A DNA stretch of 41,225 nucleotides, from IMG/VR virus record IMGVR_UViG_3300042922_000120, positions 1-41,225 of that record; one strand, written 5' to 3'. The translations under genes were made by a program, and so were the position numbers. The notes under the pieces were generated by a model. That model saw only the letters and a list, made by a program, of their open reading frames with translations. It did no database searches and was not told the origin of the DNA. Shown here in pieces: positions 18,769-37,258 of this stretch (within the stretch, counting starts at the first letter, position 1; each line of letters opens with the position of its first letter). This DNA is from a virus.

Positions 18769-18814
18769 AACCCGCAGAGAAGCCCCAGGACGGGCGTTTA
18801 AGGCTTGCCAGTAG

Positions 18815-18832
18815 GATTGCACCTCTGGGATC
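18815..18832 (+). promoter_or_regulatory. copy of dispersed operator motif upstream of large terminase
   Basis: GATTGCACCTCTGGGATC keeps the right half (CTGGGATC) and centre of the family but has two changes in the left half. It lies in the 103-bp gap between the terminase genes, a gap that holds no other gene (T7 has the Rz-type gene 18.5 near here). Confidence 0.5.
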
Positions 18833-18871
18833 CTTGACGCCTGCCTGTGGCTCTCCCAGCCCATCAGGTTC

Positions 18872-20578: not shown

Positions 20579-21275
20579 GACCCCCAGTCCTCTCTAAGAT
20601 TCAACCATAAGAGTCCTACTCTTGGTGTCCTTGGCGAGGGAGAGTTAGGTGGAGCTGATCACTGATCATCCTTATCTAGCCCTCCCTCCCAGCCCTCCCG
20701 ACGACCCCTCCTAGTTCTCAGGTCCATCTACGATGTCCCAACGAACTAGGAGGCCAGGGTTGTCAATAGGAGACTCTAAAGGTGCTGCCCTGCCCTCTCC
20801 ACAAGCAGCCACGTGTAGTAGAGCGTCGGCGCAATGAATGCCCACCTCCGACAGGCCCGGTTTGCTCTCGCTTTGATCTTGCCCACGCACAGTTCTCCTT
20901 AAAAGAATCTTGTGGTGGTCTTTTGGAAGGGGAGAAAAGTATGTGGCTCTCCTCGAACCCCAAAGTAAAGACCCTGAGCGGCGCGATTCCCCCGATTATT
21001 TGAGTTGCCTGTGAACTTCGGACCCCGGATGTTTTCACCGAAAAATGTGAAACCCCTTATTTCACGCGGCGGGCCTGAGGTTCCCCCCCGTGCCCCTCGT
21101 GGCTCCCGCGTTCCATCGCCCATTGGGGTCTCGACGGCACCCTCTGCCGCCACACCGCGTCACCCGTAGCGTCACATCGGGGCACCTCACCGGCCTAACC
21201 CATTGATTTCGCTAGGATCACAGGGGATTCGGTATCCCGTGTTGTGACAATCGCCCTCTACATGAGGCACCACAG

Positions 21276-21518
21276 GACCACGCTAGGACGTCGCTAGGAC
21301 GCCTTGGCTAGTGGTCGCGGCTTGTCGCCTTGCTTGGCTCTTATCCATTGTTTTCACCGTTCCTGTGGTCTCACCTAACGACCACTCAGCGACCACGCCA
21401 CGCGCCACGCTATGAGCCATGGCCACAAGCCACGCTGGGATACGTAACGAAACATCACAACGCGTACCTGGGATGCAATGCGACCACGCTAGGACGGCCA
21501 AACGACCACGCTAGGACG
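21276..21518. repeat. direct repeats GACCACGCTAGGACG
   Basis: Three exact copies of GACCACGCTAGGACG at 21276-21290, 21482-21496 and 21504-21518, plus a shorter TCGCTAGGACG at 21291-21301. Degenerate CGACCACGC and CCACGC pieces lie between (21380-21440). T7 has short-repeat arrays next to its terminal repeats; these could be the counterpart or a packaging/replication recognition array. Confidence 0.75.
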
Positions 21519-21550
21519 CCGCTATGCGTTCGCTAACGCTGCACTGATTC

Positions 21551-21669: not shown

Positions 21670-21699
21670 TTGACGTTCCCACATCTGTGATCCTATTGT
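21670..21699 (+). promoter_or_regulatory. early host-type (sigma70) promoter with operator in spacer
   Basis: TTGACG (21670-21675), 18-bp spacer, TATTGT (21694-21699). The spacer plus last -35 base is an operator-family copy (21675-21692, GTTCCCACATCTGTGATC), so a bound repressor would block host RNA polymerase. An AT-rich tract lies just upstream (21610-21668), like an UP element. It is the only strong host-type promoter I see before the early genes starting at 21897. Confidence 0.75.
21675..21692 (+). promoter_or_regulatory. operator motif copy inside early promoter
   Basis: GTTCCCACATCTGTGATC. Left half and centre are consensus, right half partly so. It lies between the -35 and -10 hexamers of the early promoter. 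Confidence 0.7.
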
Positions 21700-21986: not shown

Positions 21987-21992
21987 CCTAAC

Positions 21993-22010
21993 GTTCCCAC
22001 ATCTGACAAC
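21993..22010 (+). promoter_or_regulatory. operator/stoperator motif copy
   Basis: GTTCCCACATCTGACAAC, left half and centre consensus, right half degenerate; in the 40-bp gap between the first two early genes, same orientation as the others. Confidence 0.6.
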
Positions 22011-22026
22011 CTTCGGAGACCGTACC

Positions 22027-22821: not shown

Positions 22822-22822
22822 C

Positions 22823-22840
22823 GATCCCACATCTGGGAAC
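22823..22840 (+). promoter_or_regulatory. operator/stoperator motif, near-perfect palindrome
   Basis: GATCCCACATCTGGGAAC: TCCCA and TGGGA arms around CATC, starting two bases after a TAA. One of the best copies and a useful reference for the consensus. Confidence 0.72.
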
Positions 22841-22927
22841 GACAGGCCGAAACCGGAGCGATCCGGTCGGGACGTAGGGCGTCCCCTGACGATGGCCAAG
22901 CCCGCAGCAACACAACGGAGATCGACG

Positions 22928-23518: not shown

Positions 23519-23520
23519 AC

Positions 23521-23538
23521 GATCCCACCTCTGGGAGC
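23521..23538 (+). promoter_or_regulatory. operator/stoperator motif copy
   Basis: GATCCCACCTCTGGGAGC, both arms present, two bases after the kinase-like gene's stop. Confidence 0.68.
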
Positions 23539-23546
23539 CTCCATCC

Positions 23547-24077: not shown

Positions 24078-24078
24078 C

Positions 24079-24096
24079 GATCCCACCTCTGCAACA
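24079..24096 (+). promoter_or_regulatory. operator/stoperator motif copy
   Basis: GATCCCACCTCTGCAACA, left half and centre perfect, right half lost; one base after a TAA. It supports an asymmetric consensus in which the left half matters most. Confidence 0.6.
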
Positions 24097-24109
24097 CTGG
24101 AGAACCAAG

Positions 24110-24899: not shown

Positions 24900-24972
24900 C
24901 GAGGCCCCCTGACGTGGGCCGAAACCGGAGAGGGACCGCCTTGGCCCCTCCTCGGTAGTGGCATGTCGCCAT

Positions 24973-24990
24973 GTCGCCACATCTGGGATC
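24973..24990 (+). promoter_or_regulatory. operator motif copy in lysogeny control region
   Basis: GTCGCCACATCTGGGATC, centre and right half consensus, left half changed at two positions. It lies upstream of the DnaA box and candidate promoter. Confidence 0.55.
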
Positions 24991-25004
24991 GAAGGGTGGC
25001 GGAG

Positions 25005-25103: not shown

Positions 25104-25122
25104 GCTGGGAATGGTTCCCGGC
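25104..25122. promoter_or_regulatory. everted half-sites / hairpin
   Basis: GC-TGGGAA-TGG-TTCCC-GGC: the TGGGAA and TTCCC arms of the operator family occur in reversed order with a 3-base gap. It is a hairpin in RNA and could be an alternative protein-binding arrangement. Confidence 0.4.
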
Positions 25123-25318
25123 TGTGACACCCTGCCACTTTGTTCCTAGTCCGTTCTGGGGCACATAGGTGGGAAGCTCTCGCACAGTACATTAGGGGTC
25201 TTGCTACGAGAGGGCATCCCCACACGGACGTATAACATCATGAAAAATAAGTCTTTTTACGCCTCCGCACTAGGTGTGGAGATCTTCGGGGAGTACACGC
25301 CCGACGACCCCCCTCTTT

Positions 25319-25336
25319 ATTCCCACAGATGGGAAC
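25319..25336. promoter_or_regulatory. palindromic operator upstream of the winged-helix gene
   Basis: ATTCCCACAGATGGGAAC: arms TTCCCA and TGGGAA around CAGA, 70 bp before the regulator start. It has the clearest two-sided symmetry of all copies; its position suggests autoregulation. Confidence 0.65.
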
Positions 25337-25405
25337 GTGGAGCTGGGCTAGAGTTGTGGTGCGGTAGGTTCCGTGTAGTACTGAGTCGCAAGGAGCAACC
25401 ACCTT

Positions 25406-25729
25406 ATGAACGCATCAACAAGACACCTCCAACGCTCACTCTTATTGCTGGAGGAGTTTCGGAAGATAAACCCCGAAATGCCCATCCAAGTGGCGGCGAC
25501 ATTTCTGGTGATCGCGGAGACTCCTCGCATACCGTTCAGGGAAATCGGCCTGCGGACGGGTCAATCCTCTTCCGCAACCAACCGGAACGTTGCGCTTCTT
25601 GCCGGGAAGTACGGGACACCGCTCGTCGCTTACGGGCGTGATCCCAACGACGCTCGAAACAACATCGCGTGGCTGACCCCATTGGGAGAGAGGCTGGCCG
25701 CATCCATCGCACACTACATGGAGAAGTAA
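25406..25729 (+). CDS. small winged-helix DNA-binding regulator, candidate phage repressor, 107 aa
   Basis: Predicted MarR-like winged helix. An N-terminal dimerisation-type helix (TRHLQRSLLLLEEFRKI) precedes the recognition region IPFREIGLRTGQSSSATNRNVALLAG (about residues 43-68), and a wing-like LVAYGRDPNDARNNIAWL is followed by a final helix. ATG 25406 has AAGGAG (25390-25395) ten bases upstream. The stop directly abuts the integrase ATG. A palindromic operator lies 70 bp upstream. Its place next to the integrase and the operator network make it my best candidate for the lysogeny repressor, but it could instead control integration or excision. Confidence 0.72.
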   Translation: MNASTRHLQRSLLLLEEFRKINPEMPIQVAATFLVIAETPRIPFREIGLRTGQSSSATNRNVALLAGKYGTPLVAYGRDPNDARNNIAWLTPLGERLAASIAHYMEK

Positions 25730-26764
25730 ATGGCAATCAGACAGCGTGGATCGTCCTGGCAATGGGACAAGATGGTTCAAGGGGTGCGTCGTCGCGAGAC
25801 GTTCGCCTCTCAGAAGGAGGCCAAGGAGCACGAGAAGAAAGTGGTCGACGCTATGCTGGCGGGCGATCCTTATCCGTGCCCAAAGGATCCCACTTCTGGG
25901 CCAGAGGCCGAGAAGAACAGCAAGAAGGGGAGCCTGCGGGTCATGGCCGAACTCACCTTCAAGAAGCACTGGCAGTTCGACAAGTTCGGCAACCCCGGCA
26001 AGAACATCAAGAAGGCCCGCATCAACCTTGAACTGATGATGCAGCACTTCGGTGAGGACTGCATGGTCAAGTCCATCGGCACCTACGAGTTGGACGCATG
26101 GATCGACGCGCTCAAGGCGAAGGGCAATGCCAACGGCACGATCAACCGCAAGCTCGCGGTGCTCGGTAAGGTGTTGCGGCAGGCAATCCGTGAGAATGTC
26201 ATCGACACCATGCCGGTCATCGAGCGTCCCAAGGAGGGCGGCGGGCGTATCCGCTGGCTGTCCGACGAGGAAGAGACGGCAGTGCTCAACACGCTGCGGC
26301 GGTGGGAGAAGCACGACCACGTCGACACCATCATCTGCCTGCTCGATACCGGGATGCGTCCCTCTGAACTCTACGGGCTGACCAAGCGGGACATCGACCT
26401 AAAGACCGGGATGGTCACGGCGTGGGACACGAAGACCGGCAAGCCACGCTCAGTGCGGATGACCAAGCGGGTCCGTGAGATCATGATGCGGCGGCACAAC
26501 TATGCGACGCCGTTCCCGTACGACAACGAGTGGATGCGGAACGGATGGGACCGGGCTCGGAACCACCTCGGGTTCGCCAATGATCCCCACTTCGTGCCGT
26601 ACATCTGCCGCCACACCTGTGCCTCCCGGCTGGCGCAGCGCGGCGTCCGTCTACAGGTCATCAAGGAGTGGCTTGGTCACAGTGACATGCAGATGACGAT
26701 GAGGTACGCGCACCTCTCCCCCGGCAACCTCGAAGAGGCCGCGCAGGCCCTTGAGATGGCCTGA
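25730..26764 (+). CDS. int: tyrosine recombinase (phage integrase), 344 aa
   Basis: Catalyses integration and excision between phage and host attachment sites. An N-terminal arm-binding-like part (RQRGSSWQWDKMVQGVRRRETFASQKEAKEHE), a core-binding helical domain (about 70-165), and a catalytic domain are present. Catalytic residues: Arg210 in DTGMRPSEL, Lys in TKTGK (about 235-238), Tyr291-x-x-Arg294 (Tyr in place of the common His), His317 in WLGHSDM, and nucleophile Tyr326 in RYAHLSP. Start ATG 25730 abuts the regulator stop. An operator-family copy lies inside the gene at 25886. Confidence 0.95.
   Translation: MAIRQRGSSWQWDKMVQGVRRRETFASQKEAKEHEKKVVDAMLAGDPYPCPKDPTSGPEAEKNSKKGSLRVMAELTFKKHWQFDKFGNPGKNIKKARINLELMMQHFGEDCMVKSIGTYELDAWIDALKAKGNANGTINRKLAVLGKVLRQAIRENVIDTMPVIERPKEGGGRIRWLSDEEETAVLNTLRRWEKHDHVDTIICLLDTGMRPSELYGLTKRDIDLKTGMVTAWDTKTGKPRSVRMTKRVREIMMRRHNYATPFPYDNEWMRNGWDRARNHLGFANDPHFVPYICRHTCASRLAQRGVRLQVIKEWLGHSDMQMTMRYAHLSPGNLEEAAQALEMA
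25886..25903 (+). promoter_or_regulatory. operator motif copy inside the integrase gene
   Basis: GATCCCACTTCTGGGCCA, 13 or more consensus positions, encoding DPTSGP in the integrase linker between the N-terminal and core-binding parts. Its presence in coding DNA suggests selection for protein binding as a roadblock, or is chance. Confidence 0.5.
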
Positions 26765-26805: not shown

Positions 26806-27354
26806 ATGCTCTACGACTTCTACAAAGCTACCAACATGGCCTCGTTCGACTTCTCCCGCCTCGCCGGTCCCGACCGCATCTTGGGGAGCAACTATTCGGA
26901 CAAGCTCTATGGCGGGGCGGGCAACGACAAGATCGACGGCTACGCTGGCAACGACACGCTCAAGGGCGGGGACGGTAAGGATTGGCTCTACGGGAGCCTC
27001 GGTAAGGATACCCTCTACGGGGGAGCCGGTGCCGACAAGTTCGTCTTCAAGAACACTATTGATAGTTGGTCGATCCTCGACTTCAAGCACATGGACACCA
27101 TCGCGGACTTCTCCCGTGGGCAGAAGGACAAGATCGACCTCCACTACATCGACGCTGACGTGACGCGGGCCGGGAACAACGCATTCACCTTCGTGGGCAA
27201 GGCGGGCTTCAGCGGGAAGGCCGGGGAGCTGACGACCTTGGACACCAAGTCGGGCACCTACGTCGGTGGAGACACGAACGGCGACACCATCCAAGACTTC
27301 ATGGTGTTCGTGAAGGGCGTCCATGTGATCACCAAGGGAGACTTCCACCTTTGA
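26806..27354 (+). CDS. RTX calcium-binding protein with serralysin-type C-terminus, 182 aa
   Basis: Five nonapeptide RTX repeats (YGGAGNDKI, DGYAGNDTL, KGGDGKDWL, YGSLGKDTL, YGGAGADKF; about residues 39-84) would bind calcium and fold outside the cell. The following segment DTIADFSRGQKDKIDLHYIDAD...GDTNGDTIQDF...ITKGDFHL matches the C-terminal domain of serralysins and related type I-secreted proteins, which ends in a secretion signal. No protease domain is present. It lies between integrase and tRNA, so in a prophage it would sit at the edge: a likely cargo (conversion) gene. ATG 26806 has AAGGAA upstream. Export would need a host type I secretion system. Confidence 0.85.
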   Translation: MLYDFYKATNMASFDFSRLAGPDRILGSNYSDKLYGGAGNDKIDGYAGNDTLKGGDGKDWLYGSLGKDTLYGGAGADKFVFKNTIDSWSILDFKHMDTIADFSRGQKDKIDLHYIDADVTRAGNNAFTFVGKAGFSGKAGELTTLDTKSGTYVGGDTNGDTIQDFMVFVKGVHVITKGDFHL

Positions 27355-27398
27355 TGGTGCTAGGGAGCGCGGGGGATCAAATCCCCTGCGTGTCCCCC

Positions 27399-27416
27399 GA
27401 TTGCAGAACTGGGAAC
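27399..27416 (+). promoter_or_regulatory. operator motif copy after RTX gene
   Basis: GATTGCAGAACTGGGAAC, right half consensus, left half changed. It lies between the RTX gene and the tRNA. Confidence 0.45.
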
Positions 27417-27448
27417 GTATGTCACAAAACCTGTGACAATGGCCTCTC

Positions 27449-27535
27449 GCGGACGTGGCGAAATGGTATACGCAGCAGACTTAAAATCTGCCGCCCTTCA
27501 AAGGCTTACGGGTTCGAGTCCCGTCGTCCGCACCA
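27449..27535 (+). tRNA. tRNA-Leu (anticodon UAA), probable attP carrier
   Basis: Complete class II tRNA of 87 nt. Seven-pair acceptor GCGGACG/CGTCCGC with A and encoded CCA at 27533-27535; D stem GCG/CGC; anticodon stem GCAGA/TCTGC with loop CTTAAAA giving UAA (27482-27484); long variable arm with GCC/GGC; T stem ACGGG/CCCGT with TTCGAGT loop. UUA codons are rare in this GC-rich genome, so a translation role is unlikely. Position downstream of the integrase suggests that its 3' part is the attachment site and restores the host tRNA gene on integration, as in temperate podophages of marine bacteria. Confidence 0.9.
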
Positions 27536-27643
27536 CCCCGATTGTCACAAAATGGGACTTAAAAGACCCTGTGTGACGCTCCCGCAACTGATCTCCCTTA
27601 AATCCCAAAGCCTTAACCTATAAGGCCCTAGCTGCGCCGTAAG

Positions 27644-27661
27644 GTTCCCACATGTGACATC
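27644..27661 (+). promoter_or_regulatory. operator motif copy
   Basis: GTTCCCACATGTGACATC, left half consensus, centre changed by one base; overlaps a TGTGACA heptamer, upstream of the RNA polymerase gene. Confidence 0.45.
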
Positions 27662-27707
27662 GTCGTCACAGTGACAGGGCTGTGACACGTCCGTCGTGAC
27701 AGACAAC

Positions 27708-27725
27708 GTTCCCACTTCTGCATTT
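27708..27725 (+). promoter_or_regulatory. operator motif copy upstream of RNA polymerase promoter
   Basis: GTTCCCACTTCTGCATTT, left half and centre consensus. It lies 26 bp before the phage-type promoter of the polymerase gene, where a repressor could block readthrough or open-complex formation. Confidence 0.6.
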
Positions 27726-27737
27726 CTACCCAACAAA

Positions 27738-27773
27738 TCCCCCGTGTGACAACGAGGGCTACCCCTAGCAGTG
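27738..27773 (+). promoter_or_regulatory. phage RNA polymerase promoter, class II type (autogenous)
   Basis: AATCCCCCGTGTGACAACGA then GGGCTACCCCTAGC (27755-27768). Near-identical copies occur at 30425-30463 and 33216-33253. It is upstream of the phage polymerase gene itself, so the enzyme would reinforce its own synthesis. The start is expected near the G of CTAG (27768). Confidence 0.72.
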
Positions 27774-27817: not shown

Positions 27818-30382
27818 GTGATCGACCATCCCCTCTATCAGGCCCAGATCGACCTTGAGTACGACATGGTCACCGCTGGCCGGGACAAGTTCCTGTCGAC
27901 CATGCAAAAGGCGGCAACCCGCCAGAACGAGAGCGAGACCCCATACGGCGTCCTCCTCATGAAGAAGATGCACTCCGAGGTCACCGAGGCCATCCAAGCG
28001 GAGATCAACGCAGCCGCCATGGGCCGCCCCGGTAGGCGTCGGGCTCACGTCACCTACCTGACCTACCTCGGGGCTGACGTGTCGGCCTACATCGCCCTCC
28101 GTGGGATCCTCGACGGGATCTCCTCGGTGCGTCGGGCTCAGACCCTCGCCCTGTCCATCGCCCGCCTCTTTCAGGATCAGGTCCGCCTCGACAAGTTCAT
28201 GGCCGAGAACCCTGACAAGTACGAGGTCACCATGCGTCAGGTCGAGAAGGCCACCTCGTACCGCTACAAGTCCGTGGTCTCCCGTCTCATGATGAACCGG
28301 ACGGGTCTCGTGGATCCGGCTGACTGGTCCCAGACGGACATGGCCCACCTCGGGTTCCTCCTGATGGACCTCGCGAACAACGTGACGGGTCTGCTGGAGA
28401 AGCGGCACATCATCAAGGGCTCCCAACAGGTGGGCGTCGAGATGATCCCGACCGACCTCGCCCGTGAGTGGGTCGCCAAGTGCAAGACCACCTTCGAGAT
28501 CCTGTCCCCTGAGTACCTCCCCACGATCATCCCCCCGAAGCCGTGGGCTGGCCCGAAGAACGGCGGCTACTACACAGGCATGGCCCGCCGCATCAAGTTC
28601 GTCATCAAGTCCAAGGCTGGGTACAACAAGGGGCTCGCCGGGAAGGACATGGCCAAGGTCTACGACGCCGTGAACGCCATCCAAGAGACCCCATGGAAGG
28701 TCAACAAGCCGGTGCTCGATGTCCTCCTTGCGATCTGGGAGGGCGAGCGTTCGGCCAAGGGTCTGCCCGCGCTCCGTGATGCGGACGCCCCGGTCAAGGC
28801 CTGCGAGAACCTCAAGGAGGTCGACCCGGATGCCTTCAAGGTGTGGAAGCGGAAGGCCAACAAGGTGATCCAAGAGAACATCGCCATGACCTCGAAGCGC
28901 AAGGCTCTCCTGTCCACCATCCAAGCCGCGAAGAAGATGAGCGCCTACGAGGAGTTCTACTTCCCCCATCAGGTGGACTTCCGGGGCCGCGCCTATGCGA
29001 TCCCGAAGTTCCTCAACCCGCAGGGTAACGATGTGACCAAGAGCCTCCTCACGTTCGCCCATGGGATCCCCTTGGGTGAGGACGGCTGGCAGTACCTCGC
29101 CATTCAGGGCGCGAACACCTACGGCAACGATAAGATCAGCCTGGAGGAGCGCGTTCAGTGGGTGCTCGACAACCAAGAGAGCATCCTCCGGGTCGCTGCC
29201 GATCCGCTCGGTGACGGCTTCGACTTCTGGCAGGCCGCAGGCGAGACGTGGTGTTTCCTCGCGTTCTGCTTCGAGTGGGCCGGGTACGTGGCCGAGGGTG
29301 ATGCCTTCTGCTCGTCCCTTCCCATCGCCATGGACGGATCCTGCAACGGCATCCAGCACTACTCCGCTGTCCTGCGGGATCAGGTCGGTGGTGCCGCCAC
29401 GAACCTCGTACCGTCCACCTCGGGTAAGCCTTCGGACATCTACGGTGAAGTCGCAGGCCGCGCCGTGGAATACCTCACGGCCTTATTGCGTCCTGAGGTT
29501 CCCACTTCTGGGTTCCTTGCTGACCTGATCGAGGGCTGGGAGAAGGTGAAGGTGGACGAGGAGACCGGGGAGGTTCTCCGGGACTCGGTCGACTACAAGG
29601 ACATGGCCCGCCAGTGGCTCCGGTTCGGTGTGGATCGCTCGATCTCCAAGCGTTCGGTCATGACCCTGCCTTACGGGTCCAGCCAGCGTTCGTCCCGCGA
29701 CTTCATCGACGAGGCGATCCGCAAGAAGATCAAGGAGAAGGGCGTGGAGAACGTGTTCCAGATCGACGAGGAGGACGATGGCATCTTCGACGCCGCCCTG
29801 TTCCTCAACCCCCTCATCTGGCAGGCCATCGGTGACACCGTGAAGGCTGCTCGGGAGGGCATGAAGTGGCTCAAGGATTGCGTGGTCCTCGTCTCGAAGG
29901 CCAACAGCCCGATGCTCTGGCAGACCCCGGATGGGTTCCCTGTCGAGCAGGCCTACTATGTCCAGAAGGTCACCAAGGTGAAGACGCACATCGCTGGCGA
30001 GGTCACCGTTCTCAACCTCACGGAGGACACCGCCGAGATCAACAAGCGGGAGCAGGCCAACGGCATCGCTCCGAACTGGGTCCACTCCATGGACGCCACC
30101 GCCATGCGTGGTGCTGTCCGCCAGTCGGTCGAAGAGGGCATCGGGTACTTCGCCATGATCCACGACTCGTTCGGGACACACGCGGGCAACTCGGCACCGT
30201 TCGCTCGGATCATCCGGGAGAGCTTCGTCCGTCTCTACACCGACAATAAGCCGCTCGAAGACTTCCAGCGTCAGGTCTTGGCGCTGGTCACCGACAAGGA
30301 TGCGGAGAAGGTTCCGGCCATCCCGGCCAAAGGCACATTGGAACTGGATCAGGTTCTCCAGTCCGATTTCTTCTTTGCCTAA
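27818..30382 (+). CDS. single-subunit DNA-dependent RNA polymerase (T7 gp1 family), 854 aa
   Basis: Transcribes late phage genes from the repeated phage promoters. Motifs: DFRGRAYAIP (residues 387-396), motif A AMDGSCNGIQHYS with Asp506, motif B SKRSVMTLPYGSS with Lys611 and Tyr619, NGIAPNWVHSMDATAMR, and motif C MIHDSFGTHAG with Asp783; spacing agrees with T7 (883 aa). GTG 27818 is chosen as start because TAGGAG precedes it by seven bases and the longer frame would run through the promoter. The gene ends FFA. An operator-family copy lies inside at 29498. Confidence 0.97.
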   Translation: MIDHPLYQAQIDLEYDMVTAGRDKFLSTMQKAATRQNESETPYGVLLMKKMHSEVTEAIQAEINAAAMGRPGRRRAHVTYLTYLGADVSAYIALRGILDGISSVRRAQTLALSIARLFQDQVRLDKFMAENPDKYEVTMRQVEKATSYRYKSVVSRLMMNRTGLVDPADWSQTDMAHLGFLLMDLANNVTGLLEKRHIIKGSQQVGVEMIPTDLAREWVAKCKTTFEILSPEYLPTIIPPKPWAGPKNGGYYTGMARRIKFVIKSKAGYNKGLAGKDMAKVYDAVNAIQETPWKVNKPVLDVLLAIWEGERSAKGLPALRDADAPVKACENLKEVDPDAFKVWKRKANKVIQENIAMTSKRKALLSTIQAAKKMSAYEEFYFPHQVDFRGRAYAIPKFLNPQGNDVTKSLLTFAHGIPLGEDGWQYLAIQGANTYGNDKISLEERVQWVLDNQESILRVAADPLGDGFDFWQAAGETWCFLAFCFEWAGYVAEGDAFCSSLPIAMDGSCNGIQHYSAVLRDQVGGAATNLVPSTSGKPSDIYGEVAGRAVEYLTALLRPEVPTSGFLADLIEGWEKVKVDEETGEVLRDSVDYKDMARQWLRFGVDRSISKRSVMTLPYGSSQRSSRDFIDEAIRKKIKEKGVENVFQIDEEDDGIFDAALFLNPLIWQAIGDTVKAAREGMKWLKDCVVLVSKANSPMLWQTPDGFPVEQAYYVQKVTKVKTHIAGEVTVLNLTEDTAEINKREQANGIAPNWVHSMDATAMRGAVRQSVEEGIGYFAMIHDSFGTHAGNSAPFARIIRESFVRLYTDNKPLEDFQRQVLALVTDKDAEKVPAIPAKGTLELDQVLQSDFFFA
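29498..29515 (+). promoter_or_regulatory. operator motif copy inside the RNA polymerase gene
   Basis: GTTCCCACTTCTGGGTTC, both arms nearly consensus, encoding part of PEVPTSGF within the polymerase. A roadblock role for a bound repressor is possible. Confidence 0.5.
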
Positions 30383-30384
30383 AG

Positions 30385-30402
30385 GATCCCACTTCTGCAA
30401 AC
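30385..30402 (+). promoter_or_regulatory. operator/stoperator motif copy
   Basis: GATCCCACTTCTGCAAAC, left half and centre consensus, two bases after the polymerase stop and before the next phage promoter. Confidence 0.62.
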
Positions 30403-30424
30403 GTTACGCTGATCACGGCGGGAA

Positions 30425-30463
30425 ATCCCCCGCTGTGACAACGAGGGCTACCCCTAGCATTCA
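30425..30463 (+). promoter_or_regulatory. phage RNA polymerase promoter, class II type
   Basis: AATCCCCCGCTGTGACAACGAGGGCTACCCCTAGC in register with the copy upstream of the polymerase; start expected near 30458. It drives the small-gene/SSB/endonuclease/lysis unit. Confidence 0.72.
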
Positions 30464-31391: not shown

Positions 31392-31393
31392 AC

Positions 31394-31411
31394 GATCCCA
31401 CTACTGACACC
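31394..31411 (+). promoter_or_regulatory. operator/stoperator motif copy
   Basis: GATCCCACTACTGACACC, left half consensus, two bases after a stop and 14 bases before an intrinsic terminator. Confidence 0.52.
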
Positions 31412-31424
31412 CATCGACCACCGC

Positions 31425-33217: not shown

Positions 33218-33253
33218 TCCCCCCGTGTGACAACGAGGGTTACCCCTAGCCTA
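33216..33253 (+). promoter_or_regulatory. phage RNA polymerase promoter, class II type
   Basis: AATCCCCCCGTGTGACAACGAGGGTTACCCCTAGC, one base different in the core from the other two; start expected near 33250. It drives the replication gene unit. Confidence 0.72.
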
Positions 33254-36538: not shown

Positions 36539-36544
36539 CACAAC

Positions 36545-36562
36545 GTTCCCATAAGTGGGACT
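36545..36562. promoter_or_regulatory. operator/stoperator motif copy
   Basis: GTTCCCATAAGTGGGACT, both arms present around a different centre (TAAG), six bases after the primase-helicase stop. Confidence 0.55.
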
Positions 36563-36575
36563 GAGGAGACACTAC

Positions 36576-37201: not shown

Positions 37202-37212
37202 TTTAACCGGAG

Positions 37213-37230
37213 GTTCCCACAACTGGGAGC
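37213..37230 (+). promoter_or_regulatory. operator/stoperator motif copy
   Basis: GTTCCCACAACTGGGAGC, both arms present, about 11 bases after a stop and 28 bases before the DNA polymerase start. Confidence 0.6.
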
Positions 37231-37258
37231 CTCCCCAGCCATTCTAAGGGAAGGCGCA

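Follow-up and report, generated by a model that had tools for sequence, protein, structure and literature searches.

A MarR-type protein encoded next to the integrase of a T7-like phage as candidate lysogeny-side regulator of a dispersed, oriented network of operator-like sites

Among integrase-bearing T7-like phages, LUZ100 and Pasto offer the closest described counterparts of the locus considered here: LUZ100 gp10 and Pasto gp007 belong to the same protein family as our candidate regulator, occupy the same place before the integrase gene, and have a tRNA-Leu nearby and a phage promoter before the polymerase gene. A role in the lysis/lysogeny decision has already been proposed for the MarR-type proteins of both phages (PMC10134795, citing Boeckman et al.), and the published model, as cited there, is one of repressed polymerase transcription, in which binding sites lie on either side of the promoter that precedes the polymerase gene. 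A more distant homologue, pMarR of cyanophage P-SSP7 (PSSP7_011, PMC9692554), is likewise encoded directly before the integrase and RNA polymerase and shares a key Arg, but has been studied as an activator of the host rne gene. Dispersed operator networks are known from the cluster A mycobacteriophages (L5 and TipsytheTRex; PMC9283540), where a single genome carries more than 20 stoperators, oriented repressor sites found in promoters and in short gaps between genes; these are bound by a monomeric repressor with two DNA-binding domains that recognizes an asymmetric 13-mer and blocks elongation. Lambda cI and LexA-like repressors, in turn, silence lytic genes from clustered sites.

The stretch of DNA analyzed here, hereafter the window, comprises positions 1 to 41,225 of virus record IMGVR_UViG_3300042922_000120. 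Its ends are identical over 127 bp, so that it most likely represents a T7-like phage genome assembled completely and closed into a circle. It encodes RNA polymerase, a Gp2.5-like single-stranded DNA-binding protein (SSB), endonuclease, primase/helicase, DNA polymerase, exonuclease, and head and tail proteins, and its T7-like RNA polymerase and structural genes, tyrosine integrase and MarR-type gene are those of an integrase-bearing autographivirus. The integrase (25730–26764, plus strand) matches phrog_1 (E 1e-57) and PF00589, and the RNA polymerase (27818–30382, plus strand) matches phrog_414 (E 3e-252). The listed start of the polymerase ORF (27746) falls inside a putative phage promoter, and translation more likely begins at the GTG at 27818, which is preceded by AGGAG.

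The candidate regulator, a protein of 107 aa, is encoded from an ATG at 25406–25729 on the plus strand, and its ORF ends one base short of the integrase ATG at 25730. A first, sequence-only reading of the window had described it as a small winged-helix protein immediately upstream of the integrase, and both parts of that description hold. The protein matches phrog_9665 (‘transcriptional regulator’, E 7e-17); its AF2 model (pLDDT 90) has helices and wing in MarR order, with the winged helix and flanking dimer helices of the MarR fold; and its top solved-structure matches in Foldseek are of the MarR family (PcaV, MexR, MarR and MepR-DNA), with DNA complexes of MepR and FabT among the matches. 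The Pfam MarR_2 match falls below its cut-off. Homologues are present in 16 phage records and occupy the same genomic place in LUZ100, Rhizobium phages, Limnohabitans phage YIMV22061, pelagiphages and P-SSP7-type cyanophages. Arg60 is invariant across 15 homologues and aligns with R67 of pMarR (~30% identity), which is required for DNA binding (PMC9692554), whereas Asn59 stands where pMarR has the neighboring Ser66.

The same reading had judged the protein too short for a cI-type repressor, and rightly so: its 107 residues form a single MarR-like fold, different from that of Lambda cI and LexA-like repressors, and a C-terminal cleavage/dimerization peptidase domain is absent. RecA-stimulated cleavage of this protein cannot be the induction route. 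Induction would then proceed in another way, the candidates being a ligand, an ion, a leader peptide or an antirepressor; as to the ion, pMarR responds to Ca2+, and an annotated anti-repressor in RHEph01 and a KilA-N protein in LUZ100 bear on the last.

The window contains a family of dispersed, near-palindromic sites that is unmistakable as a repeat family. Exact matches to the pattern SGWTCCCACNWCTG number 11, every one of them on the plus strand, against 0.01 expected; the dyad form SGWTCCCAN4TGNNAWCS matches eight times against 0.02 expected; and a motif scan returned 21 plus-strand sites, the weakest of which are doubtful. The left half, CGWTCCCA, is well conserved, and the right half retains the dyad in the relaxed form TGNNAWCS. 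The best members lie at 21674, 21992, 22822, 23520, 24078, 27643, 27707, 29497, 30384 and 31393. Copies of SGWTCCCACNWCTG are mostly placed after stop codons. Sites on the plus strand directly follow the stop codon at 23520–23539 and 24078–24097, that of the RNA polymerase gene (30384–30403, a position common to relatives), and the primase/helicase gene (36544–36563); others precede the GP88-like gene (21992–22011), mark its end (22822–22841, a full dyad), or lie ahead of the genes for SSB (31393–31412) and DNA polymerase (37212–37231). Two plus-strand copies lie within genes, those for integrase (25885–25904) and RNA polymerase (29497–29516). On the minus strand, one site precedes the terminase large subunit ORF (18814–18833; near-symmetric and scoring on both strands), and another, a dyad-form match of opposite orientation, is found just before the tRNA-Leu (27398–27417).

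The proposal that the 107-aa protein governs this network gains from the places where copies are found. An early sigma70-like promoter (TTGACG-18 bp-TATTGT, 21670–21699, plus strand) has its spacer filled by the operator-like site at 21674, the layout of the mapped LUZ100 promoters P1 and P2; a weaker plus-strand site lies upstream of the regulator's own gene (24972–24991); and two plus-strand sites lie upstream of the polymerase gene, both recovered by the motif scan, at 27643–27662 (a dyad-form match) and 27707–27726 (the strict pattern). What stands of the proposal is a MarR-type gene beside the integrase and a genuine near-dyad network that is distinct from the likely phage promoters; that the protein binds the sites and represses through them is the part that we infer.

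The sequence-only reading had further singled out the most symmetric copy, about 70 bp before the gene, and ATTCCCACAGATGGGAAC (25319–25336) is indeed found 69 bp ahead of the start codon. It is the sole exact TTCCCA-N4-TGGGAA in the window, a pattern that with at most one mismatch has four matches against 0.09 expected. This copy is atypical, however: two features of the oriented family, the left flanking CG and the asymmetric HTCTG, are missing from it, and it falls within a conserved leader ORF (25240–25405, plus strand, with the frame open to 25641 and overlapping the regulator), where it is read as the codons YSHRWER. By eye, similar small ORFs lie directly 5' of the MarR gene in LUZ100 (gp09), RHEph01 (gp07), RHEph21 and YIMV22061 and in the loci L005, L015, L022, L024 and L030; the LUZ100 promoter P3 is also within its leader ORF. 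A PHROGs search with the leader ORF (25240–25641) gave no match. Its product could be a partner of the MarR-type regulator or its antagonist. A second palindrome, GGGAA-TGG-TTCCC, lies upstream of the regulator at 25104–25119 with TGTGACA adjacent to it.

Since the dispersed CGWTCCCACHTCTGGGA sites number about 20, are strongly of one orientation, lie upstream of genes, and contain a CAC-N4-GGGA that looks like CACTATAGGGA of T7, they could serve the phage's own T7-like RNA polymerase as promoters, with the dyad incidental. This was our first idea for the motif, and we abandoned it once masking had brought out a distinct promoter-like motif and the mapped start sites of LUZ100 had been compared. 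De novo motif searches without coding masks were swamped by codon bias. When the dispersed motif was masked and the search repeated, a second motif, TGTGACAACGAGGGCTACCCCTAGCA, emerged on the plus strand before the polymerase gene (27745–27770), after it (30434–30459) and at 33226–33251, with 0 expected; the first two copies, likely phage promoters like the third, occupy exactly the positions of LUZ100 phi1 and phi2. This second motif is SP6-like (TGTGACAACGAGGG, three copies) and is the likely promoter of the phage polymerase, which makes it improbable that the dispersed sites are promoters. Cappable sequencing has located the phage start sites of LUZ100 (PMC10134795); the mapped phage promoters share AATTACCACACAGKTATGGA, and a second family of TATCCAC-type near-palindromes, distinct from them, is dispersed after stop codons. 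These LUZ100 sites have no annotated phage start site (PMC10134795), and two of them sit exactly between the -35 and -10 elements of the early host promoters P1 and P2. A promoter-like motif likewise coexists with a separate dispersed network in RHEph01, RHEph21, L005, L015, L022 and L024. On this evidence we regard promoter function of the dispersed sites as unlikely.

Most of the integrase-bearing T7-like relatives examined closely carry their own version of the dispersed sites, at matching positions but with a different near-palindromic sequence, and no such network is seen in T7, gh-1 or phiKMV. Similar networks are found in RHEph01, TRX32-1, RHEph21, Pasto and IMG/VR loci; L005, the nearest relative by polymerase (46%), has about 20 near-perfect GGTGCAGTSACTGCACC palindromes over 1–22496, some of them inside the integrase gene. 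The orientation of the sites is kept in LUZ100 and Pasto and is weaker in L005 and RHEph01. The stop codon of the RNA polymerase gene is followed within 2–14 nt by an operator-like site in the window, LUZ100, RHEph01, TRX32-1, Pasto, L022, L030 and L024, the Pasto site being taken from a separate positional comparison because the pattern used for the stop-codon check is too strict for that phage. The nearest such site in L005 is at +39 nt, and RHEph21 has none after the polymerase gene. No clear network emerged from the motif comparison for YIMV22061 and many AT-rich marine loci. Among noncoding repeat families, the one ranked first is a palindrome in the window, LUZ100, RHEph01, TRX32-1, Pasto and L005 (z 3.5–4.7) and in L022 (z 3.4). 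In T7, gh-1 and phiKMV it is not palindromic (z 2.3–2.5), and for T7 and gh-1 it corresponds to the known promoter. The palindromicity score is not decisive alone, since some lower-ranked repeat families (in gh-1 and TRX32-1) reach z 3.2–3.6 and L015, L024 and L030 show a weak dyad.

Searches of viral contigs with a single MarR protein returned nothing and a 15-member alignment proved too diverse, whereas a clade alignment yielded 80 further loci; a scan of genome contigs yielded one prophage. Over the 80 extra loci, enrichment of TATCCAC tracks one MarR clade. TATCCAC operators go with helices of the [IL][SA]Q-S-SRN type, and other operator sequences are found where the position of pMarR Ser66 is not Ser, for example Asn in the window and Thr in L005. 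This covariation is a correlation confounded by shared descent rather than proof of recognition. Pasto combines the SRN triad with a different operator, and pelagiphage-type homologues with a SQASCSRN helix are accompanied by isolated ATCCAC sites only.

A tRNA-Leu (UAA; 27449–27535, plus strand) separates the integrase region from the RNA polymerase gene, and by analogy with a Litchfieldella prophage, whose att sites lie between integrase and polymerase, its surroundings are the probable attP neighborhood. A second tRNA-Leu fragment of at least 11 nt, which would fix attP, was not found in the window. The prophage, a relative in Litchfieldella qijiaojingensis, interrupts a tRNA-Leu gene of the host in its anticodon region, with CTGGATTTAGGTT as the 13-bp core, and bears a complete tRNA-Leu with a TAG anticodon, the same as that of the host gene split at the core. 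On the left, the junction is found about 300 bp ahead of the RNA polymerase gene, and on the right it is 4 nt past the integrase, so the polymerase and the MarR-integrase pair come to lie at opposite ends of the prophage, about 41 kb apart. The same end-to-end layout is seen in IMG/VR contigs (L048/L063, L025/L064 and L020/L069), and TRX32-1 is recorded as induced from a lysogen. By analogy with these relatives, the window phage may be temperate and form lysogens.

Several other features of these regions were noted. In the Litchfieldella prophage, a hairpin with a T-run is found immediately within the left junction, ahead of the polymerase gene (L149/L150/L151 and L147/L148), an 11-copy one-strand motif, AATAGAGCCCACCCATAGAACA, is likely a phage promoter, and a CTTTAAGAC-type element precedes the polymerase and MarR genes (both L149–L151). 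In the window, TGTGACA/TGTCACA repeats flank the tRNA-Leu on both sides (27420–27700) and include the inverted pair TGTCACA-N5-TGTGACA; these clusters were considered as the operator, but we interpret them as belonging in part to the promoter motif and otherwise as possible integrase arm sites. A gene for an RTX-type calcium-binding repeat protein (26806–27354), between integrase and tRNA-Leu, is possible lysogenic-conversion cargo, and CGACCACGCTAGGACGYCGCTA repeats at 21275–21520, within 1.4 kb of noncoding DNA that follows the terminase gene, may mark the genome-end region.

We consider it probable that the 107-aa protein is, as a MarR-type dimer, a lysogeny-side regulator that acts through the stoperator-like operator network of about 20 copies. 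The dimer would bind the phage-specific near-palindrome CGWTCCCA-N4-TGGGAWCG and repress the early host-type promoters and the polymerase gene. Copies that follow stop codons, oriented with transcription, would, in the manner of stoperators, keep host or phage polymerase from reading through. Without expression of the polymerase, the middle and late genes would remain silent. In a relative, integration also parts the polymerase gene from both the early promoters and the MarR-integrase operon, since the integrase and polymerase genes flank the attachment site. A two-layer switch of this kind, with the MarR dimer acting on a genome-wide stoperator-like network before both polymerases and integration separating the RNA polymerase gene from the early promoters, is a more tentative proposal, which we hold to be possible and somewhat doubtful. 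Counting against a lysogeny regulator, stable lysogens were not obtained for LUZ100 (PMC10134795), and T7-like cyanophages integrate, yet formed no stable lysogens (PMC8776855).

This scarcity of cyanophage lysogens would also fit a MarR-type protein that serves chiefly as a host-directed activator in lytic infection, for example of RNase E, while another factor reads the sites. In the literature covered, the one homologue with biochemistry, pMarR, activated the host rne promoter, bound the alpha subunit of RNAP and was reported to bind with low specificity (PMC9692554), and since it behaves so, a lytic-phase activator role for the 107-aa protein is possible. Against its being the chief role, P-SSP7 is distant, dense oriented networks occur in phages with a MarR-type protein, no other shared DNA-binding regulator was found among the compared phages, and TRX32-1 came from a lysogen; taken together, we think it distinctly unlikely. 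The position of sites after stop codons could also mean that they work at the RNA level, as hairpins for processing or termination rather than as protein-binding DNA: some copies could fold TCCCA-N4-TGGGA hairpins, and the LUZ100 terminator windows T4 and T16 contain sites. Many copies, however, keep the left half while the right half is broken (TGCAA, TGACA), and the copies in the LUZ100 P1 and P2 spacers lie upstream of the start site and are not transcribed from those promoters, which makes RNA elements very improbable. Binding of a host factor such as DnaA (TTATCCACA-like sites) instead of a phage protein is more improbable again, for although the LUZ100-type TATCCAC resembles a DnaA box, the networks of the window (TCCCAC), L005 (GTGCAGTSACTGCAC) and Pasto (AGTCACTCAAGGGTGACT) have matching positions and unrelated sequences.

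The system of the window thus shares elements with each of the described ones. Like the stoperators of cluster A mycobacteriophages, its sites are numerous (about 20), lie at a promoter and in intergenic gaps, and are oriented, with an 11:0 strand bias for the strict pattern; unlike the L5 system, with its monomeric repressor on an asymmetric 13-mer, it combines an inferred MarR-type dimer with a near-palindrome of which one half is degenerate, in a phage with its own RNA polymerase. We do not file it as L5-type because its sites are near-palindromic and its regulator has a MarR-type fold. With Lambda cI and LexA-like repressors it would share the role of silencing lytic genes, although its sites are dispersed rather than clustered. 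The LUZ100 article differs from our reading in that it describes neither a dispersed oriented network, nor sites in the P1 and P2 spacers, nor a network-wide comparison (PMC10134795). In the openly available literature searched, no description of stoperators in T7-like phages was found, the one article that mentions both being on a T1-like coliphage; the dispersed network may be partly described elsewhere, for example by Boeckman et al. What appears to be new is the dispersed oriented network, its separation from the promoters, the conservation of its positions with diverged sequence, and integration that separates the polymerase gene.

Network and MarR-type protein together look like a scheme of lysogeny control undescribed for T7-like phages. 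How a T7-like phage can be silenced when its own polymerase can amplify its own expression is an open puzzle, and lysogens of such phages have been hard to show; a dispersed, oriented network whose positions are conserved across phages is a directly testable answer. Such a network would also offer a way to predict temperate behavior of T7-like phages, which is relevant to the choice of phages for therapy, and pairs of MarR-type proteins and operators, along with the phage-polymerase promoters, may be usable in synthetic circuits.
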